A stretch of 26,958 nt of DNA from a virus, in the IMG/VR virus record IMGVR_UViG_3300042894_001226, positions 1 through 26,958 of that record. One strand, given 5' to 3'. Both the position numbers and the translations under genes were made by a program. The notes beneath the pieces are model-generated. The model was not told the origin of the DNA, did no database searches, and saw only the letters and a program-made list of their open reading frames with translations. This document shows, piece by piece, positions 1,353-26,390 of the stretch. Every line of letters begins with the position of its first letter. Position 1 is the first letter of the stretch.

Positions 1353-1523
1353 CCAAACGAGTGTTTTACCCTCTGTTATCCCTCTACTGGATTAGTAAAA
1401 AGGCCACAAAATAAGCGGGCTTTTTTCATCAACAATAACCCTCCAGATCACTCAAGTATTTATATAATCTACAACTACAGAGCCTTATAAACAAAGGGAT
1501 TGAATGAAATGTAAAATAAATAC

Positions 1524-1553
1524 TTGCACAATTTAAAACTATTTGACTATAAT
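1524..1553 (+). promoter_or_regulatory. Sigma70-like promoter of the first small-gene operon
   Basis: TTGCAC at 1524-1529, an 18-base AT-rich spacer and a perfect TATAAT at 1548-1553, 28 bases before the start codon of the first plus-strand gene. The context TGACTATAAT recurs exactly at the second promoter near 3342. Confidence 0.7.
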
Positions 1554-1581
1554 TAAAAGGCAACAACTAAACGGAGGATTT

Positions 1582-1806
1582 ATGCAACATTTACACAACT
1601 CAACGATTGAAGAATTGCACGAGCTAACACGAGAGCAACTCATCACAATGTTAGTAAACCATGACCGAGACGGAGAGTATTCGGACGAGCAACGCACCGC
1701 ATTGGGTGAAGACATTTTGAACCATCAAGAGGCGTTAAGCCTTGCGGTTTTACATTTGAACGAAGTAATAGACGGGGAAATTTTGAACCAACTGGAGGGC
1801 AAGTAA
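1582..1806 (+). CDS. Small acidic phage protein of unknown function
   Basis: A 74-residue protein, mostly helical by composition, with the segment TIEELHELTREQLITML near the N-terminus and an acidic middle. I recognise no domain. The start at 1582 is chosen because ACGGAGGA lies seven bases upstream; a longer in-frame start at 1543 falls inside the -10 region and can be discarded. It is the first gene after the promoter at 1524 and its stop overlaps the next start as TAATG, so the two are translationally coupled. Confidence 0.75.
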   Translation: MQHLHNSTIEELHELTREQLITMLVNHDRDGEYSDEQRTALGEDILNHQEALSLAVLHLNEVIDGEILNQLEGK

Positions 1807-1982
1807 TGAACATAATACAGAGGACAAAGCCAAGCGATTCACCTTATATGGTGGAAGACAATGGCACGCTTATATTTTGGTGCAACTACAAGCATGAGGC
1901 GGAGGCGTTCATTCGTGGCGTTAATCATGCCAAACGCAAGCACGCTCAAGAATCATTAAACAAACCAACGGAGGCAGTATGA
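1806..1982 (+). CDS. 58-residue hypothetical protein
   Basis: A short gene that fills the gap between its neighbours: it starts in a TAATG overlap with the gene before and ends in an ATGA overlap with the gene after. The product has a predicted beta-like centre (GTLIFWCNYKHEAEAFIRG) and a basic C-terminal half. No domain recognised. The last codons contain the ACGGAGG ribosome binding site of the next gene. The perfect fit at both ends is the main evidence that it is real. Confidence 0.7.
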   Translation: MNIIQRTKPSDSPYMVEDNGTLIFWCNYKHEAEAFIRGVNHAKRKHAQESLNKPTEAV

Positions 1983-2317
1983 AAACGACAGTATATAGAA
2001 GCGAATTTCACGACTATTTCAAGCAAGCGGGCAGAGACACCCAGTTCAGCTATGAAGCCAAAGACTTGCTATTTGACTACTTTGAGGAATACGAGGAAAG
2101 CACAGGCGAGGAAATAGAGCTAGACATTATTGCCATTTGTTGCGACTACGAAGAGACTCATTACACGGACATCATTGGGCAATACGATACCGACATTGAG
2201 GACGAAGAGCTAACGGACGAAGACGAAAAAATAGAATATATCCGCAACTGGCTAAACGATAACACTCAGCTTGTGGGCGAATCGTCCGAGGGTGTTTTTG
2301 TATATCAGCAATTTTAA
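1979..2317 (+). CDS. Acidic conserved phage protein (FSYEAKDLLFDYFEEYE type)
   Basis: A 112-residue, strongly acidic protein. The block QFSYEAKDLLFDYFEEYEE followed by TGEEIELDIIAICCDYEE is a pattern I know from small hypothetical proteins of many tailed phages, although no function is established. The Cys-Cys pair in AICCDY is typical of that group. Its high negative charge could suit DNA mimicry or binding to a host protein, but that is speculation. It has a good ribosome binding site (ACGGAGG) inside the preceding gene. The first hammerhead ribozyme starts four bases after its stop codon. Confidence 0.75.
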   Translation: MKTTVYRSEFHDYFKQAGRDTQFSYEAKDLLFDYFEEYEESTGEEIELDIIAICCDYEETHYTDIIGQYDTDIEDEELTDEDEKIEYIRNWLNDNTQLVGESSEGVFVYQQF

Positions 2318-2321
2318 TCAG

Positions 2322-2370
2322 TCCGTCTGATGAGTCCTAAAGAGGACGAAAACCCGCAAGGGTTCACGGA
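2322..2370 (+). ncRNA. Type I hammerhead ribozyme, copy 1
   Basis: All parts of a hammerhead are visible. Stem I: 2322-2326 (TCCGT) pairs with 2366-2370 (ACGGA), open-ended, hence type I. Core CTGATGA at 2327-2333. Stem II: 2334-2338 with 2343-2347, loop AAAG. Core GAA at 2348-2350 with A2351 pairing U2364. Stem III: 2352-2355 with 2360-2363, capped by the GNRA loop GCAA. The cleavage triplet is UUC, so cutting falls between C2365 and A2366, 23 bases before the start codon at 2389. A possible distal extension of stem I (2313-2316 with 2372-2375) would create the internal loop that natural hammerheads use for tertiary contact with loop II. It sits between two genes and would leave the downstream mRNA with a 5'-hydroxyl. 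Confidence 0.93.
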
Positions 2371-2388
2371 ATAAACAACGGAGGTAAT

Positions 2389-2544
2389 ATGGCAACATTT
2401 CAAGAGGCTTTAGAGTATATAAAGCAAGATATAAAAGACGGTTTCACCTTATCTTATTACATTGAAGACGGAAAAATTTACGCTGAAACCGACCAAGGTT
2501 TTATAAGGTGGTTTCCCGTTTTAAATTCAGAAGAAATTCTTTAA
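2389..2544 (+). CDS. 51-residue hypothetical protein between the two ribozymes
   Basis: A short gene with a strong ribosome binding site (ACGGAGG, then four bases, then ATG) that remains intact on the RNA produced by the first hammerhead. The product has an N-terminal amphipathic helix (FQEALEYIKQDIKDGF) and a beta-rich C-terminal half with several aromatic residues (SYYIEDGKIYAETDQGFIRW). No family recognised. It is followed 12 bases later by the next gene. The two lie together on the 440-base segment between the ribozyme cut sites. Confidence 0.75.
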   Translation: MATFQEALEYIKQDIKDGFTLSYYIEDGKIYAETDQGFIRWFPVLNSEEIL

Positions 2545-2556
2545 GGAGCTAAACAA

Positions 2557-2760
2557 ATGAAGAAAATTTACGAATGCTTTTGGGGCGAAGGCTACCATCA
2601 AAACAACCGCTCAACTTTGGAATGGCACGAAGAAGAGTTTTTCACGGAGGAAAAGGGATACGACCCCGAAGATATAGAAAGCATACAAGCCATGAGCGTT
2701 GGGCAATCGCTTAACCTTTCATGTATCACTGGCGAGCATTGGATTAGAAGGGTTGAATAG
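2557..2760 (+). CDS. Small conserved phage protein (FWGEGYHQNN type)
   Basis: A 67-residue acidic protein starting with a run of aromatic and polar residues (KKIYECFWGEGYHQNNRS), then a glutamate-rich centre, and closing with GEHWIRRVE. I recognise the pattern from hypothetical proteins of other phages but know no function. The start has an AAGGAG site nine bases upstream. Its TAG stop is immediately followed by the first base of the second hammerhead ribozyme, so ribozyme cleavage leaves this gene with a compact folded 3' end. Confidence 0.75.
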   Translation: MKKIYECFWGEGYHQNNRSTLEWHEEEFFTEEKGYDPEDIESIQAMSVGQSLNLSCITGEHWIRRVE

Positions 2761-2811
2761 TCCTTACTGATGAGCCTATAAAGGCGAAACGCTCGGGCGA
2801 GCGTCTAAGGA
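2761..2811 (+). ncRNA. Type I hammerhead ribozyme, copy 2
   Basis: Stem I: 2761-2766 (TCCTTA) with 2806-2811 (TAAGGA), six pairs, open-ended. Core CTGATGA 2767-2773. Stem II: 2774-2777 with 2782-2785, loop ATAA. Core GAA 2786-2788, A2789 pairing U2804. Stem III: 2790-2794 with 2799-2803, loop GGGC. Cleavage triplet GUC, the commonest natural triplet, with the cut between C2805 and U2806, 24 bases before the ATG at 2830. All three stems differ in sequence from copy 1 yet pair completely, which is strong internal evidence for a selected structure. It begins on the base after the upstream stop codon. Confidence 0.95.
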
Positions 2812-2829
2812 TAAACAAACGGAGGAATT

Positions 2830-3117
2830 ATGCAATATTTTAAACCCATGCACGATTTAAACGATTCAATTTTAGCTAGGCAGCCCGCCCTAGAATTTCC
2901 AAGAGTTGCAGATGCAGTCCTAAAAGGCATTTTTGAGGGATTGATTGAGCAAGGATATACCGAAGAGATGGCAACCAGTTTTATCACTTCTAGCATTCTT
3001 AGGCATGAGCTAGACGGAAACTTGGAAGATGGTCTCGCAGACTTTGGGAAGTTTTACGCTCGCACAATCGCCCACTCATACAGAGCCGATTGCAAACGCT
3101 ACGCAGAAGAAACCTAA
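2830..3117 (+). CDS. 95-residue hypothetical protein downstream of ribozyme 2
   Basis: A helical-looking protein with a recognisable rhythm of helices (VADAVLKGIFEGLIEQG, MATSFITSSILRHELDG, GKFYARTIAHSYRADCKRYA). No known domain identified. It has an ideal ribosome binding site, ACGGAGGA, inside the 24-base leader left by ribozyme 2. It is the last gene of this transcription unit: a clear intrinsic terminator follows 12 bases after the stop codon. Confidence 0.75.
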   Translation: MQYFKPMHDLNDSILARQPALEFPRVADAVLKGIFEGLIEQGYTEEMATSFITSSILRHELDGNLEDGLADFGKFYARTIAHSYRADCKRYAEET

Positions 3118-3129
3118 GCAAACCAATCC

Positions 3130-3148
3130 CCCGCATTGAGCGGGTTTT
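3130..3148 (+). terminator. Intrinsic terminator ending the first plus operon
   Basis: Hairpin CCCGC (3130-3134), loop ATTGA, GCGGG (3140-3144), followed directly by TTTT. It lies 12 bases after the stop at 3117 and separates this unit from the one starting near 3347. Confidence 0.8.
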
Positions 3149-5620: not shown

Positions 5621-5895
5621 ACGGCTATAACAGACGACTGGTCATGAACCAGTATCATATTACTCCCGAACAGGACTTCATTCTCGGCTTGGTCTATGAG
5701 AAAAGGGTCATGCCCGCTACGGATATTCTGTTTGACTGTATAAAACTACAGGTATGCAGTCATGCCACGGCACACAAATACTTTAAAAGTCTTGTAGTCC
5801 GTGACTTTCTTAGAACAGAACAAGGAAAAGACTCTCGTCACAAGAATGTATTTCTCAGTTCCAAGGGTGTAGCTTATCTTGAGGAAACGAAATGA
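5617..5895 (+). CDS. Small winged-helix regulator (MarR-like fold)
   Basis: A 92-residue protein with a layout typical of a minimal winged helix: ITPEQDFILGLVYEKRVMPA, a possible HTH in DILFDCIKLQVCSHATAHKY, a further helix FKSLVVRDFLRTEQ, and a wing (SRHKNVFLSSKGVAYL). The C-terminal LSSKGVAYL is characteristic of MarR-like folds. The start at 5617 is an ATGA overlap with the previous gene. The gene carries an internal AAAAGGGTCATGC at 5701, the same sequence as the intergenic repeats at 3263 and 6022, which raises the idea of autoregulation. Confidence 0.6.
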   Translation: MNGYNRRLVMNQYHITPEQDFILGLVYEKRVMPATDILFDCIKLQVCSHATAHKYFKSLVVRDFLRTEQGKDSRHKNVFLSSKGVAYLEETK

Positions 5896-6297: not shown

Positions 6298-7030
6298 TCA
6301 AATCTTCCTCCGCCATTTGGCAAAAAATACCGCACTCTATGCTCTGTTCTTTTGGATACTCACCCGCATCAGGAGGCAAGTCGTCTAAGAAAATCCGTTC
6401 TCCCTTGTGCTTGAGAATCTTCACACCCAGTTGCTTCTCAAGATTAGCCATCTTGGTAAATGCATCAGGAAAGTCAGCGCGAATCTTATTCCAATAACCG
6501 AGACCGCCTTTAACGCAGCCGACACAGTTATTGTTTTGATACCCAAGCTTATACATCTCAGGTAACTCAATACCTGCACGGGAAAGTATCGCCAGGCAGT
6601 CAGACTTTTTAAGACCTTTGTCCAACAAGATAGACCACAACTTAACATCATTGTTTGCATCAATGAAACGGTTTACTCGGTCTTCTTCTTCAGCCGTGTA
6701 GCCAAACACTTGCGTATCTTCAGGTCTTTCATACTTTTTACGGACTTCCTTCTTAAGAAACATGGTGCATGGTGCGCCTTGAATACCAACTATGTATTTT
6801 CTTTTGGTAAAAACCTCATAGATACTGCCGTTGTATTTGTCATCAGTCAGCACTTTTATCTCTTGTCCAAACCATTTCTCACAGTCTTTTAGAAACCTCA
6901 TGTTATCGGGGTGTTCTTCTTTGACATGACAATAGACTACCTCTACTGGAGTTTTGCTTTCTGATATCGCTAACTTTGTGGCAACTGCCGAGGCCGCCCC
7001 ACAACTGAACCAACTAATTACTCTGCTCAT
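6278..7030 (-). CDS. PAPS reductase-like PP-loop protein
   Basis: A 250-residue protein. The N-terminal SWFSCGAASAVATKLA is a PP-loop-type nucleotide-binding motif. Further blocks VEVVYCHVKEEHPDN, IQGAPCTMFLKKEVRKKY and NNCVGCVKGGLGYW match the phosphoadenosine phosphosulfate reductase superfamily, with Cys residues in PCT, CVGC and the C-terminal ECGIFC that could hold a cluster or metal. Superfamily members reduce PAPS or activate nucleotides for sulfur transfer (DndC is one). I choose the start at 7030 because AAGGAGTTGAAG precedes it; an in-frame ATG at 7057 lacks this. It overlaps the methyltransferase stop by 17 bases. Substrate unknown; sulfur metabolism or DNA modification are both open. 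Confidence 0.75.
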   Translation of the reverse strand: MSRVISWFSCGAASAVATKLAISESKTPVEVVYCHVKEEHPDNMRFLKDCEKWFGQEIKVLTDDKYNGSIYEVFTKRKYIVGIQGAPCTMFLKKEVRKKYERPEDTQVFGYTAEEEDRVNRFIDANNDVKLWSILLDKGLKKSDCLAILSRAGIELPEMYKLGYQNNNCVGCVKGGLGYWNKIRADFPDAFTKMANLEKQLGVKILKHKGERIFLDDLPPDAGEYPKEQSIECGIFCQMAEEDLNGKETT

Positions 7031-12134: not shown

Positions 12135-12499
12135 ACATTGTTCCCATGCTAATGCAATAGCTATTTTTATAAAAACGCAATTCCGCTTTCCGCTTTCTGT
12201 CTACTGTAGAAACCCACTGTAGTAACCCACACCCTCTGTGTTCCTGAACGGTGGACGCACCTAGCCTACCTAGATGCGCCTTCAGTTGTTCCGTCACGGA
12301 GCCACAACACCCGCCAGTCGTTCGTAGAATCGGCACTAGCTTCGCCACCGATATGTGCAGTGTTACATCTACTTACCCCCAGTCTGCTTACAACTGATGT
12401 CGCTGGCGTGGTTTGTTCCCCGTCCAACATCAATCGGCTGACTGAAAAGCAAAAGACCGCTAGGATCTGTCGTTTCTAGGATATAACACAGCGTAAATT

Positions 12500-19956: not shown

Positions 19957-20230
19957 GAAACTTCTAAAGATTCTCAGACAGTCACCATGCCAGCACTGCG
20001 GTTGCCAAGACGGAACCGTAGTTGCTGCACACAGTAACCAACTCAGGGACGGCAAAGGAAGAGGCATCAAGGCGCACGACTATCGAGTCGCTGCCTTATG
20101 CTACAAAGACCACATGGCAATTGACCAAGGGTCTGTCCTATCTAAAGAAGAACGTTTCCAGTTATGGGATGACGCTCATAGGAAAACAATAGGATGGCTG
20201 TTTGAGAACGGCCACCTTACTATTTCTTAA
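19943..20230 (+). CDS. HNH-type nuclease-like protein (DUF1364-like)
   Basis: A 95-residue protein with the plan of short phage HNH proteins: CQHCGCQDG (zinc knuckle), VVAAHSNQLRDGKGRGIKAH with the catalytic-type His, and ALCYKDHMAIDQG supplying the second Cys and the final His. Such proteins occur at the end of recombination operons, as here. The GTG start at 19943 has GAGGA upstream. It ends convergently, overlapping the stop of the giant minus-strand gene by 11 bases. Confidence 0.72.
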   Translation: MYRSEKLLKILRQSPCQHCGCQDGTVVAAHSNQLRDGKGRGIKAHDYRVAALCYKDHMAIDQGSVLSKEERFQLWDDAHRKTIGWLFENGHLTIS

Positions 20231-23200
20231 GACTAATCCTTGTTTCCTCTGCCAATCTAGTCATCTCTGACATAACTATTTTGGCGCGGGCAATCTCAGC
20301 TTCCTTATCTGCCTTGCTCATATTAGGGTCACGAGTAATTACCTGAATATACTTACGGTATTCAGCTAACTGTTTAGATGTCTTATCGTAAACTTTCTGT
20401 AGAGCAATCAAGTCACCCTTATCTTTGAGAATCTCTGTAACCTTTTCCATCTGACCAGTCTCAGCGTAACGTTTCATATCCGCAAAAGCTTGGTTGATGC
20501 GTTGGTTGTTCTCATAGAATGATGTGACATACTTGGATTGAGTCTGTGGCATGGTCTTGATAAAGCCCATACCAACCGTGTCAATCAACGGTTTACCTGG
20601 CTTCTCAACATCACTCCATGGCTGAACAGCTTTGTCTGACACCGCGGCGGCTGTAGATCCAGCCCAGCCAAAGTAAGCCTTAAGCGCAAAGTCCACCTGA
20701 ACTGGAGACATGCCCTCTGCATTTTTGTCCAGCGTTAATGCCTTAGCCGTACCTTGAGATATGCTTGCAAGAACCTTAGCCAATGCAGTAGTTGATTCTG
20801 TGTAACGCTCTTGCTTAGATAAACGCTTCAAGCTTTCTGACTCAATCGGGGCGCCGGTAAAGCTATCCTTATCAGCATACAAATCAATCAACGGTTTAGC
20901 AGCTTGCGGTATTGGGTTAAGAGAGAATGTTTCCCATAGAATGTTCTGCATACGGTCTGCAAGCACTTTACCTTCTACCTTGTCGTCTGTAACCTGTTCA
21001 AGCGTGCGCTCCATAATCGTACCCAAAGCACCAATCTCAAACGGCTTCGGAATACGGAACTGTGTATCGCCAATCTTGAACCACCAGAAGTTGTCTCTAT
21101 CCCAGTTCTCACGGCGCTTGAAGTCTTCGTCATCCTTGAATGACAAGTATAGGAGCGCAGAAGCCAACATGACCGCACTAGACACAACCATGAAACTCTG
21201 TGCCTTAATCTTGTCAGAAGCCTCTATAGGCTTGCCAGTGGTTGTGTTGTAGATAAGTCTATAGGTTGGGGTGATACCGTCTCTACCGAGCTTATACAAG
21301 CCCTGTAAACGTGCGTTAAAGAACGGTACAAGCTGTGAGATAACCTTGATGGCACGGAAAGAACCCTGTGATGAAAAGTTCATCAAGTCTCTGGCCGCAA
21401 AAGATGATTCCAAATGGCTCTTGCCTTCATCAGTTAACTTCTTAAATAAAGTTAAACGGTTGGCGTTCTCAAAGCGATTACCCTGTTGGTTGTACCATTC
21501 CAGAGCTTTGCTGAGAGCGTCTTTAACTTTCTCAGGTGTATCAAGAATAGTTCCCTGGGAAACGCCTTTCTTGATTAAACGCTTAATCATCTTGGCTTGG
21601 TCGCCCTCATGAGCAACGCCCATTTCAAAAACACCGCCACCTATTAAGGCATCTATAAATGTAGGATTATCACGAGACGATAGAGCAAGACCCTTGGCAA
21701 CGTTATCAAACACATTTAATCCAACTCGGCTGACGGCTGCTGATTGCACAGAATCACGGATTAAGTTGCGAATCTTATAGGCTGGTGACAATGTGACACC
21801 GTAACGCAATGCGTCAGTAAAGCCTTTTGCTATATCAAGGCCTGGGAACTTCGGGCCAAGAGAGCTAATCAAGGAGATAGAGTCCAATAGTAAAGCATCT
21901 TTTACTAGGTAAGCAGACTCGTTACCGCCCTCCATGACCTTAACAATGTCCTTCTTGTCCACAAACGTGCGCTCGCCATCTTCCATGAAGTAGTACTGAG
22001 TAGTACCTTTTACGGTGGTTTGCTTAACTTTCTGAGCCGCATCTAATTGAGCTGCTGACTTCAATGTACTGACAGCCGCGGCGTTCTTCATGGACGCAGA
22101 CAAGATGTGTGACCAATTCATTAGAACGTTTTCCATCAAGTCGTTTGTCTTTCTTTCGCCACCCTTCAGCTTCTTAGAGAAGTACTGATTGGTCAACTTA
22201 GATGATGCGTTAATGGAGCCAACGTCACCGTCTTCCATTTCCGTATAGAACGGGATGTAATAGATATCGTTAGAGAACCGCTCGTACGCTGCGTCATCAA
22301 TCAAGCCCTGGGCTTTAGCAATATCCAAGACTGACCTGTTAAGTTCGTTCTCTTCCTTCAGCGCCTTCTCATAAACCTGTTTACGTTGAACCCCGTTGAT
22401 TTCACCTCTGATTAGCTGGTCTCGATCACCAATTAAATCTTTGAATGAACGCTTATCTGCTGGTAATCGAGCATCACGGTTCAACGCCTTCCAAATCTGG
22501 TACTGGTCAACTTCATTACCCAAAGGCTCAAGGATGTCTAATAAACCCTTGGTTCCCTTTTTGTAAATGAGAGCGCCGTCCTTTAGCTCAACTTGACCGT
22601 AATACAACAAGCCCTCAAGCGCACCGTCTGTAGACTTAGACATAATGGCTTTCATATAGGCTTCTTCAGAATACTTCTTAATAGACCTGAACTCGTCAAA
22701 CAATCCCTGAATCAAACGCTCCGCCATGTTTGGACGCAATTGCTTGAACTTCTCCGTAACTGTTGCAGGAGTTTTGGTGAACTGCTTAAGAATTCTATTG
22801 ACAACATCTGGGTCAACATTACTTAAGTCAGCTTTTAGTTTCTTAGGGGAAGGTATTTCAAGCAACTCATCTTGACTTGGCTTCTTAGCTTCTTTCTTTT
22901 GGATAGGCTTACGCTCAACCTTCACATCCATAGGAGATTTGCCGTCAAAGTTCGCAGCTGTTGGTTCATTACCCAACGGTGCTGGCATATCTTCTGGCTT
23001 GTAATATTCAATACGTCCACGAACAACAGCGTCTGTATCAGAGACCGTCATCTCTTCTGCGGACTTGATGGGCATACCGTTGTCAACCCGCACAAACAAG
23101 TGTTCGCGCAGTGGGTTAAATGTGATACGAACGCCATCCAAACCTTTAACGTTCTGAACAATCTTACCTTGCGCTCCACCCATAGGTGACTTAGCTTCTT

Positions 23201-26200
23201 TACCGCTGGCAATGTTCTCTCTAGCCTTTTGGTTAACAATAAAGTTAACGTCACGGATAGTTACAATGCCGTCATAACCAATAGCCTTCTCAACCTTGAC
23301 GTTATATGAACCATCCTTCTTCTTTGAGAACGGCTCATGAACTGTTACTAGGTGCATCTTGACGCCATCAGGACGCTCAATAGTACCGTTTAGGTTCAGA
23401 CGAATCATTACCTCAGTGCCATCAGGCAACTGGCGGTTAGCAAACTTCTTAGCTTCAATGTTGTCAGCAAACTTCTTACCATTAATCTCGGCATCAGTCA
23501 GTGGTTGTTTGATTGGCTTGATATCCAACATCTCAGACCATTGGCTTGGGGTATCCAGCTGGCTCTCAGCCAACTTACCTTCAGCTGCTTCTTTGAAAAT
23601 GTCCTGAGCTGTACGGAAACCACGCCCACGAAGAACGTTACCAATGCGCTTAAGGATATTAACGATAGAATTAAACAATGACTTTACGGCTGGCGATTGA
23701 GTTTGCATATCGGCAAACGCATCAGCAATAGCCTCTTCAATCCTAATGTCCATAGGCTTATTGCCATATCTTGAACCATCAGGGTCGTATTTATTAATCC
23801 ATTGGCTCTTAGCTAAATCAGACAAGATTGCCCAATCTCTGTTGCTAAAGAACCCTAAGTCTTTCATAGCATGAACAGCTTCGTGGTTCATTGTTCTGAA
23901 GATGTTTGGGCCAGATAATGATAAGTTAATCAGGCTGTCAAAGTAAGAACCGTTTACCTCACTCATTCTGCCGTTTAACATGCGGTACATGCTGTCTTCT
24001 AGGTTCAAGCCAATTTGCTTTAAACCCATGCTATCCAGTGATTTACGTAAAGTAACAGCCAATTCACGAGCTTCTGCCAAAAACTTGTCTGTGTAGTAAT
24101 CCTGGGGAACTCGAGCCTCAAACTTAGCTTCTGGCAATACGCCTTGTTCTACAGCTTGTTTGTATGCAATCTCAAGAGGGGCTGTTTCAGCGGAAATTTC
24201 CTGTGTTATAGGGGCGCCTTCAGGAACGAACTGCTCTTGTGGAACAGCTTGGGCTTGCGCCAGTATGTCCGCCTCTAATTCAGCGCCTTCTAGGGGTGCT
24301 AAATCAGCTTCTGTAGGGGTTGGCTCAGGCTTAATCAATGCACGTCTCTGACGGAACGCCTCCTCTAGCTGGTCAACTTGAGCATAAGCATCCTGCATCT
24401 TTGGAGTAACAACAATTTCCCCGCGGAAAGCGTTTTGAATCATCTCGCTTAGCTTGCGCACACCACCAACATCACCGTCTGCGTCAATGTCAGATTGCGT
24501 CATGAAGCCAGCATCTCTAGCACGGGTAGCCAACTCATCTAATTGCTGTCCGTCAGGACGGAAAAGCTTGCGATTGTCACTGTTAGTGCTGATAACCTTG
24601 TTTCTGTTCTTCTTAGACTCGCCAAGAACGTCCATCATTTGGTCGGCTTTAACGCCTTGTTTGGTCAACCAGTTAGCAAACTCGTTAGTACCAAAGTCAA
24701 TAGTCTTCATGGCATTGTCGTATTCCAACTGAATGATGTCTTCTTCAGTCGGGTCAACCATGACTTTATCCATCTTACGGAAAGCTTGTTTACCGCTTTC
24801 ATCAAAATACTTAAGCCAATCACCGTCTTTACGGGTAACCTTCTCGCCTTCAGTAACCTTTACAGATGACTCGCCTTCAGGAACAAAGCCGAATCGAGTA
24901 ATGTTTTGGCTAGAAACCTCTGGGATTTCTGGCATAGGATTGAACTTGCTCAATACTTCATTGACGCCCTCAGTACCTAGCTGTGGAGCATACTTGGCGG
25001 CAAATGCAGCCTCATCTGATGTGGCAACAGACCCATCAGGGAATACAAAGTATGGCTTGATTGTTGGTTTATATGGCAACAAACCAGCAATAGCTTCTTT
25101 TTCTTCAGGAACAATAACGTTCCCTTCTTCATCAATCTCTGCCGCAGAAAACGCAGATCCCTCAGCCTTACGCAAGTCTTCTTCAGCTTGTTTTTCCTTA
25201 GCTTGTTGGTTTAATTCATCAAGCTTTTGGTATGCCTTAGAGTTCTTTCTAGCCTGTAAATCACGGAACGCCTCAACACGAAGACGGTCAGCGTCATCTG
25301 CATAAGACTCTCGTGTGCCAAGTAATTCAGCATCTATTTCTTCTTCAGGAATTCTATTCTGTTCTTCTTGTAAGCGGGCTTGCTCTGCTTCACGACGCGC
25401 TCTTGCACCCAAAGCAATACCAGCTGGTGCGCCAAACAATGCACCACCTAAACCACCCATGGCTGTAGCTGAACCAACACCTTTTAATAAATCAGTCTCT
25501 GGGAATACCTCTTGGATACCAATGTTACTTGCAAACTTACCGCCACCCTCTTCAAGAGACTCACTACCTATCTCACCAAGCGTACTCTTAAGGAACCCAC
25601 CAGTACCAGGCAATCCTTTACCAAGCATTGCTCTTTCAATAGATGCACCGCCTGGCAACTTAGATGACGCCAAACTTAAGCCTGCTGCCTCAAAAGCAGC
25701 AATACGCCCTTTAGATAATGCAATACCTTGAGCCTCTTCCTCAGGAACGCCTTCTTCTTTTAAGCGCTCATATATCTGACGGTAAGTATCGTAACCAATA
25801 TCTGTGCCTTGCATAACAGCGCCACCAGCAAGTGAAGAGCCAACGCCAACTTTTGCCACAGCTTCTTCAGTAGCATTTTTTAATAGAAGCTTTGCGCCAC
25901 CTTTACCAAGCGCACCAAAGCCGTATGAACCAATTAGGTTAGGGATTTGCTCGGAAAAGAATGATGTTAACAATGCAGGGTCAGAAACCAAACCTTTTAA
26001 CTGAACACCAGCCTCTTCAAAAAAGCCGTCCGCCTTAGCTACATCTCTAGCTAGTAACTGTTCTTTAGCTTTTAATGTAGGGGTCTTAAGTCCTTGCGCA
26101 TACTTCTCAAGATCCTGACCCATGCCTTGAATGCCAGAGTCCTGACGTTCAGGTGATGAAGTGCCAGTTAAAGTTCCAATTTGACCTGGTAACTGTATAA

Positions 26201-26390
26201 GATTACCAAGGCCAGCTAAAAAACTGGCGCCAATATCTTTAGCACCGCTTACTACACCACGGGGAACTTGAGCCTGTAATTCTGGGAACTGAGGAAGTAT
26301 TTCTGTTTCAATTGCCGCCTGAATTTGTTCATTAGACATCTCATCTGGGAAGTTGACTTGGCCAACCCCCTGAATATTTACAATCGGCAT
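20220..26390 (-). CDS. Giant polyvalent inner-virion protein with zincin and LPD38-like regions
   Basis: A 2056-residue protein. The N-terminus (VGQVNFPDEMSNEQIQAAIE) is a short motif often found at the start of phage ejection proteins. Glycine/alanine-rich hydrophobic stretches follow (residues about 120-330). A zinc-metalloprotease-like site HEAVH lies at 836-840, followed by EEAIADAFADM near 885-895 providing a likely third ligand. The C-terminal third (about 1520-1950, containing FTDALRYGVTLSPAYKIRNL and a membrane-like FMVVSSAVMLASALLYL near 1730) matches the LPD38 type of large polyvalent proteins. Such proteins are packaged in the virion and injected with DNA. The start has AGGGG upstream. 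No frameshift seen over 6 kb. Confidence 0.85.
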   Translation of the reverse strand: MPIVNIQGVGQVNFPDEMSNEQIQAAIETEILPQFPELQAQVPRGVVSGAKDIGASFLAGLGNLIQLPGQIGTLTGTSSPERQDSGIQGMGQDLEKYAQGLKTPTLKAKEQLLARDVAKADGFFEEAGVQLKGLVSDPALLTSFFSEQIPNLIGSYGFGALGKGGAKLLLKNATEEAVAKVGVGSSLAGGAVMQGTDIGYDTYRQIYERLKEEGVPEEEAQGIALSKGRIAAFEAAGLSLASSKLPGGASIERAMLGKGLPGTGGFLKSTLGEIGSESLEEGGGKFASNIGIQEVFPETDLLKGVGSATAMGGLGGALFGAPAGIALGARARREAEQARLQEEQNRIPEEEIDAELLGTRESYADDADRLRVEAFRDLQARKNSKAYQKLDELNQQAKEKQAEEDLRKAEGSAFSAAEIDEEGNVIVPEEKEAIAGLLPYKPTIKPYFVFPDGSVATSDEAAFAAKYAPQLGTEGVNEVLSKFNPMPEIPEVSSQNITRFGFVPEGESSVKVTEGEKVTRKDGDWLKYFDESGKQAFRKMDKVMVDPTEEDIIQLEYDNAMKTIDFGTNEFANWLTKQGVKADQMMDVLGESKKNRNKVISTNSDNRKLFRPDGQQLDELATRARDAGFMTQSDIDADGDVGGVRKLSEMIQNAFRGEIVVTPKMQDAYAQVDQLEEAFRQRRALIKPEPTPTEADLAPLEGAELEADILAQAQAVPQEQFVPEGAPITQEISAETAPLEIAYKQAVEQGVLPEAKFEARVPQDYYTDKFLAEARELAVTLRKSLDSMGLKQIGLNLEDSMYRMLNGRMSEVNGSYFDSLINLSLSGPNIFRTMNHEAVHAMKDLGFFSNRDWAILSDLAKSQWINKYDPDGSRYGNKPMDIRIEEAIADAFADMQTQSPAVKSLFNSIVNILKRIGNVLRGRGFRTAQDIFKEAAEGKLAESQLDTPSQWSEMLDIKPIKQPLTDAEINGKKFADNIEAKKFANRQLPDGTEVMIRLNLNGTIERPDGVKMHLVTVHEPFSKKKDGSYNVKVEKAIGYDGIVTIRDVNFIVNQKARENIASGKEAKSPMGGAQGKIVQNVKGLDGVRITFNPLREHLFVRVDNGMPIKSAEEMTVSDTDAVVRGRIEYYKPEDMPAPLGNEPTAANFDGKSPMDVKVERKPIQKKEAKKPSQDELLEIPSPKKLKADLSNVDPDVVNRILKQFTKTPATVTEKFKQLRPNMAERLIQGLFDEFRSIKKYSEEAYMKAIMSKSTDGALEGLLYYGQVELKDGALIYKKGTKGLLDILEPLGNEVDQYQIWKALNRDARLPADKRSFKDLIGDRDQLIRGEINGVQRKQVYEKALKEENELNRSVLDIAKAQGLIDDAAYERFSNDIYYIPFYTEMEDGDVGSINASSKLTNQYFSKKLKGGERKTNDLMENVLMNWSHILSASMKNAAAVSTLKSAAQLDAAQKVKQTTVKGTTQYYFMEDGERTFVDKKDIVKVMEGGNESAYLVKDALLLDSISLISSLGPKFPGLDIAKGFTDALRYGVTLSPAYKIRNLIRDSVQSAAVSRVGLNVFDNVAKGLALSSRDNPTFIDALIGGGVFEMGVAHEGDQAKMIKRLIKKGVSQGTILDTPEKVKDALSKALEWYNQQGNRFENANRLTLFKKLTDEGKSHLESSFAARDLMNFSSQGSFRAIKVISQLVPFFNARLQGLYKLGRDGITPTYRLIYNTTTGKPIEASDKIKAQSFMVVSSAVMLASALLYLSFKDDEDFKRRENWDRDNFWWFKIGDTQFRIPKPFEIGALGTIMERTLEQVTDDKVEGKVLADRMQNILWETFSLNPIPQAAKPLIDLYADKDSFTGAPIESESLKRLSKQERYTESTTALAKVLASISQGTAKALTLDKNAEGMSPVQVDFALKAYFGWAGSTAAAVSDKAVQPWSDVEKPGKPLIDTVGMGFIKTMPQTQSKYVTSFYENNQRINQAFADMKRYAETGQMEKVTEILKDKGDLIALQKVYDKTSKQLAEYRKYIQVITRDPNMSKADKEAEIARAKIVMSEMTRLAEETRISLKK

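Follow-up and report, generated by a model that had tools for sequence, protein, structure and literature searches.

Type I hammerhead ribozymes between small genes of an uncultured phage lineage: a probable role in processing operon mRNA

Hammerhead self-cleavage leaves an upstream RNA that ends in a 2',3'-cyclic phosphate and a downstream RNA that starts with a 5'-hydroxyl. In RiboJ, a hammerhead from a plant satellite RNA is joined to a hairpin and placed after a promoter, where self-cleavage leaves a standard leader before the ribosome binding site. The closest described natural systems are the prophage hammerheads of Perreault et al. 2011 (PMC3088659). According to the sections of that paper considered here, several of them border individual genes or short runs of genes, with neighbors of varying identity; prophage transcripts with multiple hammerheads self-cleave in vitro, as does one cluster in E. 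coli; and processing into short mRNAs was proposed as their role (its Figure 3 covers types I-III). The same sections describe a hammerhead with a variant core in the archaeal haloviruses HF1 and HF2, placed 13 nt before a helicase gene (PMC3088659). Because gene-flanking hammerheads and mRNA processing were already described in these sections, the ribozymes reported below are of a known kind. The role of phage hammerheads has been a question since 2011, and the lineage described here offers a testable case.

The window, meaning the whole stretch of DNA analyzed, is the 26,958-nt viral record IMGVR_UViG_3300042894_001226. Its gene content is phage-like. At the left end, the minus strand encodes a LexA-type HTH protein and a terminase small subunit; small plus-strand genes of unknown function form a divergently transcribed operon from ~1580 to 3117. 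A possible sigma-70 promoter precedes the operon (1522-1553, plus strand; TTGCAC or TGCACA, then TATAAT at 1548-1553), from a consensus scan whose matches were no more frequent than in shuffles, and an intrinsic-terminator-like hairpin (CCCGC ATTGA GCGGG TTTT; 3130-3148, plus strand) lies at its end. Two type I hammerheads, both sense to the operon, divide it in three: the part before copy 1, a middle pair of genes encoding 51 and 67 aa, and a final 95-aa gene. Copy 1 (2322-2370, plus strand; predicted cut between C2365 and A2366) lies downstream of a gene for a 112-aa phage protein of unknown function (1979-2317; PHROG 9974, E 4.5e-9), and its predicted cut is followed by a 23-nt leader with GGAGG (2366-2388) and then the 51-aa gene (2389-2544), an ORF with an ACGGAGG leader. 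Copy 2 (2761-2811, plus strand; predicted cut between C2805 and U2806) stands between the 67-aa gene (2557-2760) and the 95-aa gene (2830-3117). Elsewhere in the window, positions 12309-12434 of the minus strand match the Rfam family RF02932 (Betaproteobacteria-1 RNA) at 91 bits, which may point to a betaproteobacterial host, and positions 20220-26390 of the same strand hold a single 2056-aa ORF, ~23% of the contig, with an HEAVH metalloprotease-like motif; its product is possibly a polyvalent protein.

Copy 2 was first noticed in a sequence-only reading, which described a complete hammerhead cut after position 2805 and starting on the base after a stop codon; the analysis bears out both points. 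The stop codon of the 67-aa gene (TAG, 2758-2760) directly adjoins the ribozyme. Stem I pairs UCCUUA (2761-2766) with UAAGGA (2806-2811) over 6 bp and has an open end, stem II pairs GCCU (2774-2777) with AGGC (2782-2785) over 4 bp around an AUAA loop, and stem III pairs ACGCUC (2789-2794) with GAGCGU (2799-2804) over 6 bp around a GGGC loop. The core consists of CUGAUGA (2767-2773) and GAA (2786-2788), which carry C3 U4 G5 A6 N7 G8 A9 and G12 A13 A14, respectively; H17 is C2805 and therefore not G, and A15.1-U16.1 is the pair A2789-U2804. All three stems lie directly against the core, with stem I open and stems II and III closed by loops, as in the type I topology. Both the MFE and the centroid folds of the 51-mer are the exact hammerhead fold (-16.8 kcal/mol), and the MFE structure of copy 1 is likewise a hammerhead.

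A strict descriptor applied to both strands of the window returned copy 1 and copy 2 only. No match was obtained with it in 400 first-order shuffled windows, nor with a looser descriptor in 1.6 Mb of shuffled sequence, so a chance origin is ruled out by these shuffles. A covariance model (R1) trained on 28 related-phage hammerheads and on no window sequence scored copy 2 at 54.0 bits (E 2.9e-14) and copy 1 at 27.8 bits (E 3.2e-6) and had no other match across the window. At Rfam gathering thresholds, neither window hammerhead was reported. Under relaxed thresholds, copy 1 was the top RF00163 match (29.8 bits versus a gathering score of 34), and copy 2 was absent under RF00163 and appeared below threshold under Hammerhead_3 and RAGATH-1. 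Membership of copy 2 in the type III class (a sub-threshold match only) and in RAGATH-1 (RF03152; 26.4 versus 56.3 bits at gathering, E 0.25) was rejected. The RF00163 gathering score is a cutoff set for a library and does not define the ribozyme biochemically; relatives with perfect cores miss it too. Many perfect hammerheads were seen at 12 loci (L135, L136, L148, L156, L159, L177, L179, L210, L213, L222, L223, and L047) with none at Rfam gathering, and therefore type I hammerheads in phages probably go unannotated on a wide scale.

Tertiary features are less distinct. No clear contact between loop II and stem I was found in the window copies, and no clear pseudoknot in copy 2. In other phage copies, A bases flank stem I on the two sides in 64/80 and 60/80 cases, a pattern that the window copies fit only with an extended stem I. 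When longer flanks are included, the equilibrium probability of stem I is ~0 in copy 1 and about 0.1-0.9 in copy 2; since equilibrium folding in long flanks disfavors stem I of copy 1, activity would depend on co-transcriptional folding.

Both copies are unchanged in three contigs with ~97% identity in the region (3300042465_006257, 3300042542_001572, and 3300042563_000932) and are also present in 3300046820_000587, although such near-identical contigs give no covariation. A pattern search with the copy 2 stem I signature recovered two distant relatives, L135 and L136, whose terminases are 42% and 39% identical to that of the window. In L135, the hammerhead lies directly 3' of an apparent 62-aa orthologue of the 67-aa gene, judged by eye from the protein ends (...RRVE and ...KRIE) and not recovered by tblastn at 1e-4; in L136, it lies 5' of a 110-aa orthologue of the 95-aa gene. 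An alignment search with the terminase small subunit yielded 80 loci, and hammerheads occur in the same divergently transcribed small-gene operon in 23 of them, many of the other loci being incomplete on that side. All lineage matches are on the operon sense strand, the descriptor-placed copies lie 0.6-3.8 kb from the terminase gene, and in the more distant terminase relatives the stems are different in sequence and still paired. A conserved linkage to the 112-aa gene was rejected, as the first diverged homologues (L009-L013) carry no hammerhead in the region covered and the gene order of L135 differs. Among isolated phages, there was no DNA match to the window and no terminase match; the sole match, a weak one, was between the 112-aa gene and Nitrincola phage 1M3-16. 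No relative was found in host genomes by the terminase small subunit.

The stems of copies 1 and 2 differ in sequence, yet they are paired in both. The sequence-only reading took this as an internal covariation test; the differences and the pairing stand, but the two copies are not orthologous, and true orthologous covariation comes from the relatives. In L148 and L150, the 49-nt copy 1 ribozyme differs from that of the window only at C2336->U and G2345->A, which are stem II partners, so that a C-G pair has become a U-A pair by compensatory change. Across 28 distinct lineage hammerheads, all scored pairs are standard, and both sides have changed in 12 of 16 pairs. Because the descriptor used to select these copies requires pairing, a less circular check was made with matches to the bare core, and without selection for pairing all three stems were found in 32 of 33 such matches in lineage loci. 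Disrupted stems, which the earlier reading had named as evidence against a ribozyme, were looked for in the relatives and none were found. The stem III tetraloop is GNRA or UUCG in roughly three-quarters of the 33 distinct sequences (by eye), copy 2 with GGGC being an exception. Two further hammerheads, in L045 (minus strand, 5709-5802) and L132 (7026-7119), have stem III loops of 34-37 nt; that of L132 contains a 17-nt direct repeat, CATGAGTCCGCAAATTG, with a similar motif in L045, and these long loops are possibly regulatory insertions.

The position of the ribozymes relative to start codons is nearly fixed. Among 25 non-redundant lineage hammerheads, the cut-to-start distance is 21-31 nt, and in 24 of them it is 21-27 nt. 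For copy 2, the leader of 24 nt (2806-2829) with GGAGG at 2821-2825 is as first described, and the start codon is the ATG at 2830-2832; calling its ribosome binding site ideal was slightly generous, as the GGAGG-ATG spacing is 4 nt, a spacing common to the whole operon. In a general pattern scan of viral contigs, which gave at least 111 non-redundant type I hammerheads, an ATG lies 18-32 nt after the cut in 53 among the 111 matches listed (48%, versus 8% for random same-strand positions). The short distance could partly reflect tight packing, given that stem I and the ribosome binding site fill ~20 nt. One contig, L047, carries several type I hammerheads (seven with a loose descriptor), most of them 23-26 nt before a start codon, and is a good experimental system.

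On the upstream side, the hammerhead starts 0-4 nt after the upstream stop codon in 12 of the 15 lineage copies with an assigned stop. This abutment would suit a regulated ribozyme, in which a ribosome terminating at the adjoining stop, or a ligand, blocks folding so that cleavage reports translation of the upstream gene, and the long stem III insertions of L045 and L132 would suit it as well. However, abutting stops are expected in compact phage operons and no ligand-binding element was seen in the window copies, and we consider such regulation rather unlikely. The ribosome binding site, in turn, lies just 3' of the cut in all lineage copies, as would be expected if the intact hammerhead hid it and cleavage turned the downstream gene on. 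Stem I nevertheless ends 9 nt before GGAGG and excludes it, and the predicted accessibility of the Shine-Dalgarno sequence barely shifts on cleavage (from 0.51 to 0.55 and from 0.57 to 0.64). With accessibility thus unchanged, an unmasking switch is improbable, and processing into short mRNAs with a standard 5' end, the likely role, is the better reading.

The hammerheads also mark places where genes have been exchanged. When the window is set against L148 or L150, ~75 bp (window 2320-2392) comprising copy 1, its leader, and the ribosome binding site are conserved at 91-92% identity, and the genes differ on both sides, so that another gene takes the place of the 51-aa gene. Compared with L142 and L149, homology runs through copy 2 to position 2825, the last base of GGAGG, after which a different gene replaces the 95-aa gene. 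Similar exchanges distinguish L159 from L156, L158, and L177, L178 from L179 and L180, and L036 from L210 and L223. Homology breaks within 60 nt at 75 of 101 hammerhead junctions compared with 98 of 460 other junctions lying within 3 kb in the same locus pairs, and two-sided homology islands occur at 40 of 101 and 5 of 460, respectively. This comparison carries a bias, since conservation keeps a ribozyme visible where an ordinary junction would be lost from view and so makes islands easier to see, and the ordered pairs are not independent. Hammerheads of unrelated phages match the window cassettes over 25-48 nt around the core only, and therefore matches of 70 nt at 90% identity reflect shared ancestry.

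Since the unit is retained where genes on one side or on both have been swapped, we tentatively suggest, with somewhat less than even confidence, that the ~75-bp hammerhead, leader, and ribosome binding site act in this lineage as a natural portable 5' adaptor, kept in place, or serving as a patch of homology, as the flanking small genes are exchanged, with self-cleavage giving each incoming gene the same mRNA start. If this is true, a self-cleaving RNA would serve phages as an insulator that makes genes interchangeable. Homology islands around the ribozyme could also be expected of an inactive remnant or a mere recombination patch, but the compensatory stem II change with all other ribozyme bases unchanged, together with the intact core and stems of 32 of the 33 lineage core matches, makes a passenger very improbable. 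Least probable of all is that the two same-strand hammerheads release a 440-nt segment (2366-2805) that is closed into a circle, as in retrozymes, by ligation of its 5'-OH and cyclic phosphate ends, which would be chemically right if both cleave, because its 5' end (ACGGA) mismatches copy 2 stem I (UCCUUA) and the cross duplex has no pairs beside the cut, circularization via a shared stem I having been rejected as the copy 1 and copy 2 stems are not interchangeable, some relatives show one hammerhead only, and Perreault and colleagues, in the sections considered, sought spliced or circular products and found none (PMC3088659).

Alongside the observed structure, conservation with compensatory change, fixed start-codon distance, and surrounding gene exchange, we infer cleavage, its end chemistry, and an effect on expression, and we are fairly confident that copy 2, in the 5' untranslated region separating two phage operon genes, is a functional type I hammerhead and processes polycistronic mRNA. 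The RNA would fold as RNA polymerase passes and cut itself after C2805, and with both copies cutting, the polycistronic transcript would become three mRNAs. Each upstream RNA would then terminate behind its stem III hairpin in a 2',3'-cyclic phosphate, and the RNA downstream of copy 2 would carry a 5'-hydroxyl on a minimal leader of 24 nt, barely long enough for ribosome binding. In this way, each downstream gene or gene pair would receive an identical 5' end, with stability and translation decoupled from the upstream sequence, which would explain why hammerhead, leader, and ribosome binding site travel as one unit amid gene exchange. What makes the lineage a testable case is a cut-to-start distance fixed at 21-27 nt, a clean compensatory mutation, and natural experiments where genes change and ribozyme and leader stay.

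Further hammerheads were noted in other settings. In L106 (8394-8525) and L113 (6628-6756), the predicted cut of a type I hammerhead coincides exactly (offset 0) with the mature 5' end of a phage tRNA-Tyr that ARAGORN calls in both cases, and the stem I 3' strand is the tRNA acceptor 5' strand; L113 has this layout a second time (6478-6605), before a Tyr-like tRNA that ARAGORN does not call. Such geometry suggests that these tRNA-Tyr 5' ends are made by a ribozyme without RNase P, and theta ribozymes, which occur near phage tRNAs (PMC10879173), offer a comparison. Six contigs (L018, L020, L049, L053, L110, and L120) share a near-identical hammerhead, CTGTCTCTGATGAGTCCGTAGGGACGAAAC...GTCAGACAG, with no close downstream start codon; as tRNA genes are found on 4 of the 6, it may process a non-coding RNA.

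Set against known systems, the window copies share with Rfam RF00163 (Hammerhead_1) the core, the open-stem-I topology, and the cleavage position, and differ in that neither they nor the copies of their relatives reach its gathering score. Like RiboJ-type insulators, they would provide a standard 5' leader and separate a gene from its upstream context, but they lie between genes of a natural operon and lack an added hairpin. As in the HF1/HF2 halovirus hammerhead, as described in the sections considered (PMC3088659), the ribozyme stands just 5' of the start codon of an early gene. The likeness to the prophage clusters of the same source lies in hammerheads placed between phage operon genes, and the difference in the uncultured phage lineage that carries them here. 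Relative to the sections considered there, this locus adds the exact start-codon spacing, gene exchange directly around the unit, and a compensatory pair between near relatives; the spacing and the persistence of the unit through gene exchange were also not found in the open-access full texts searched.
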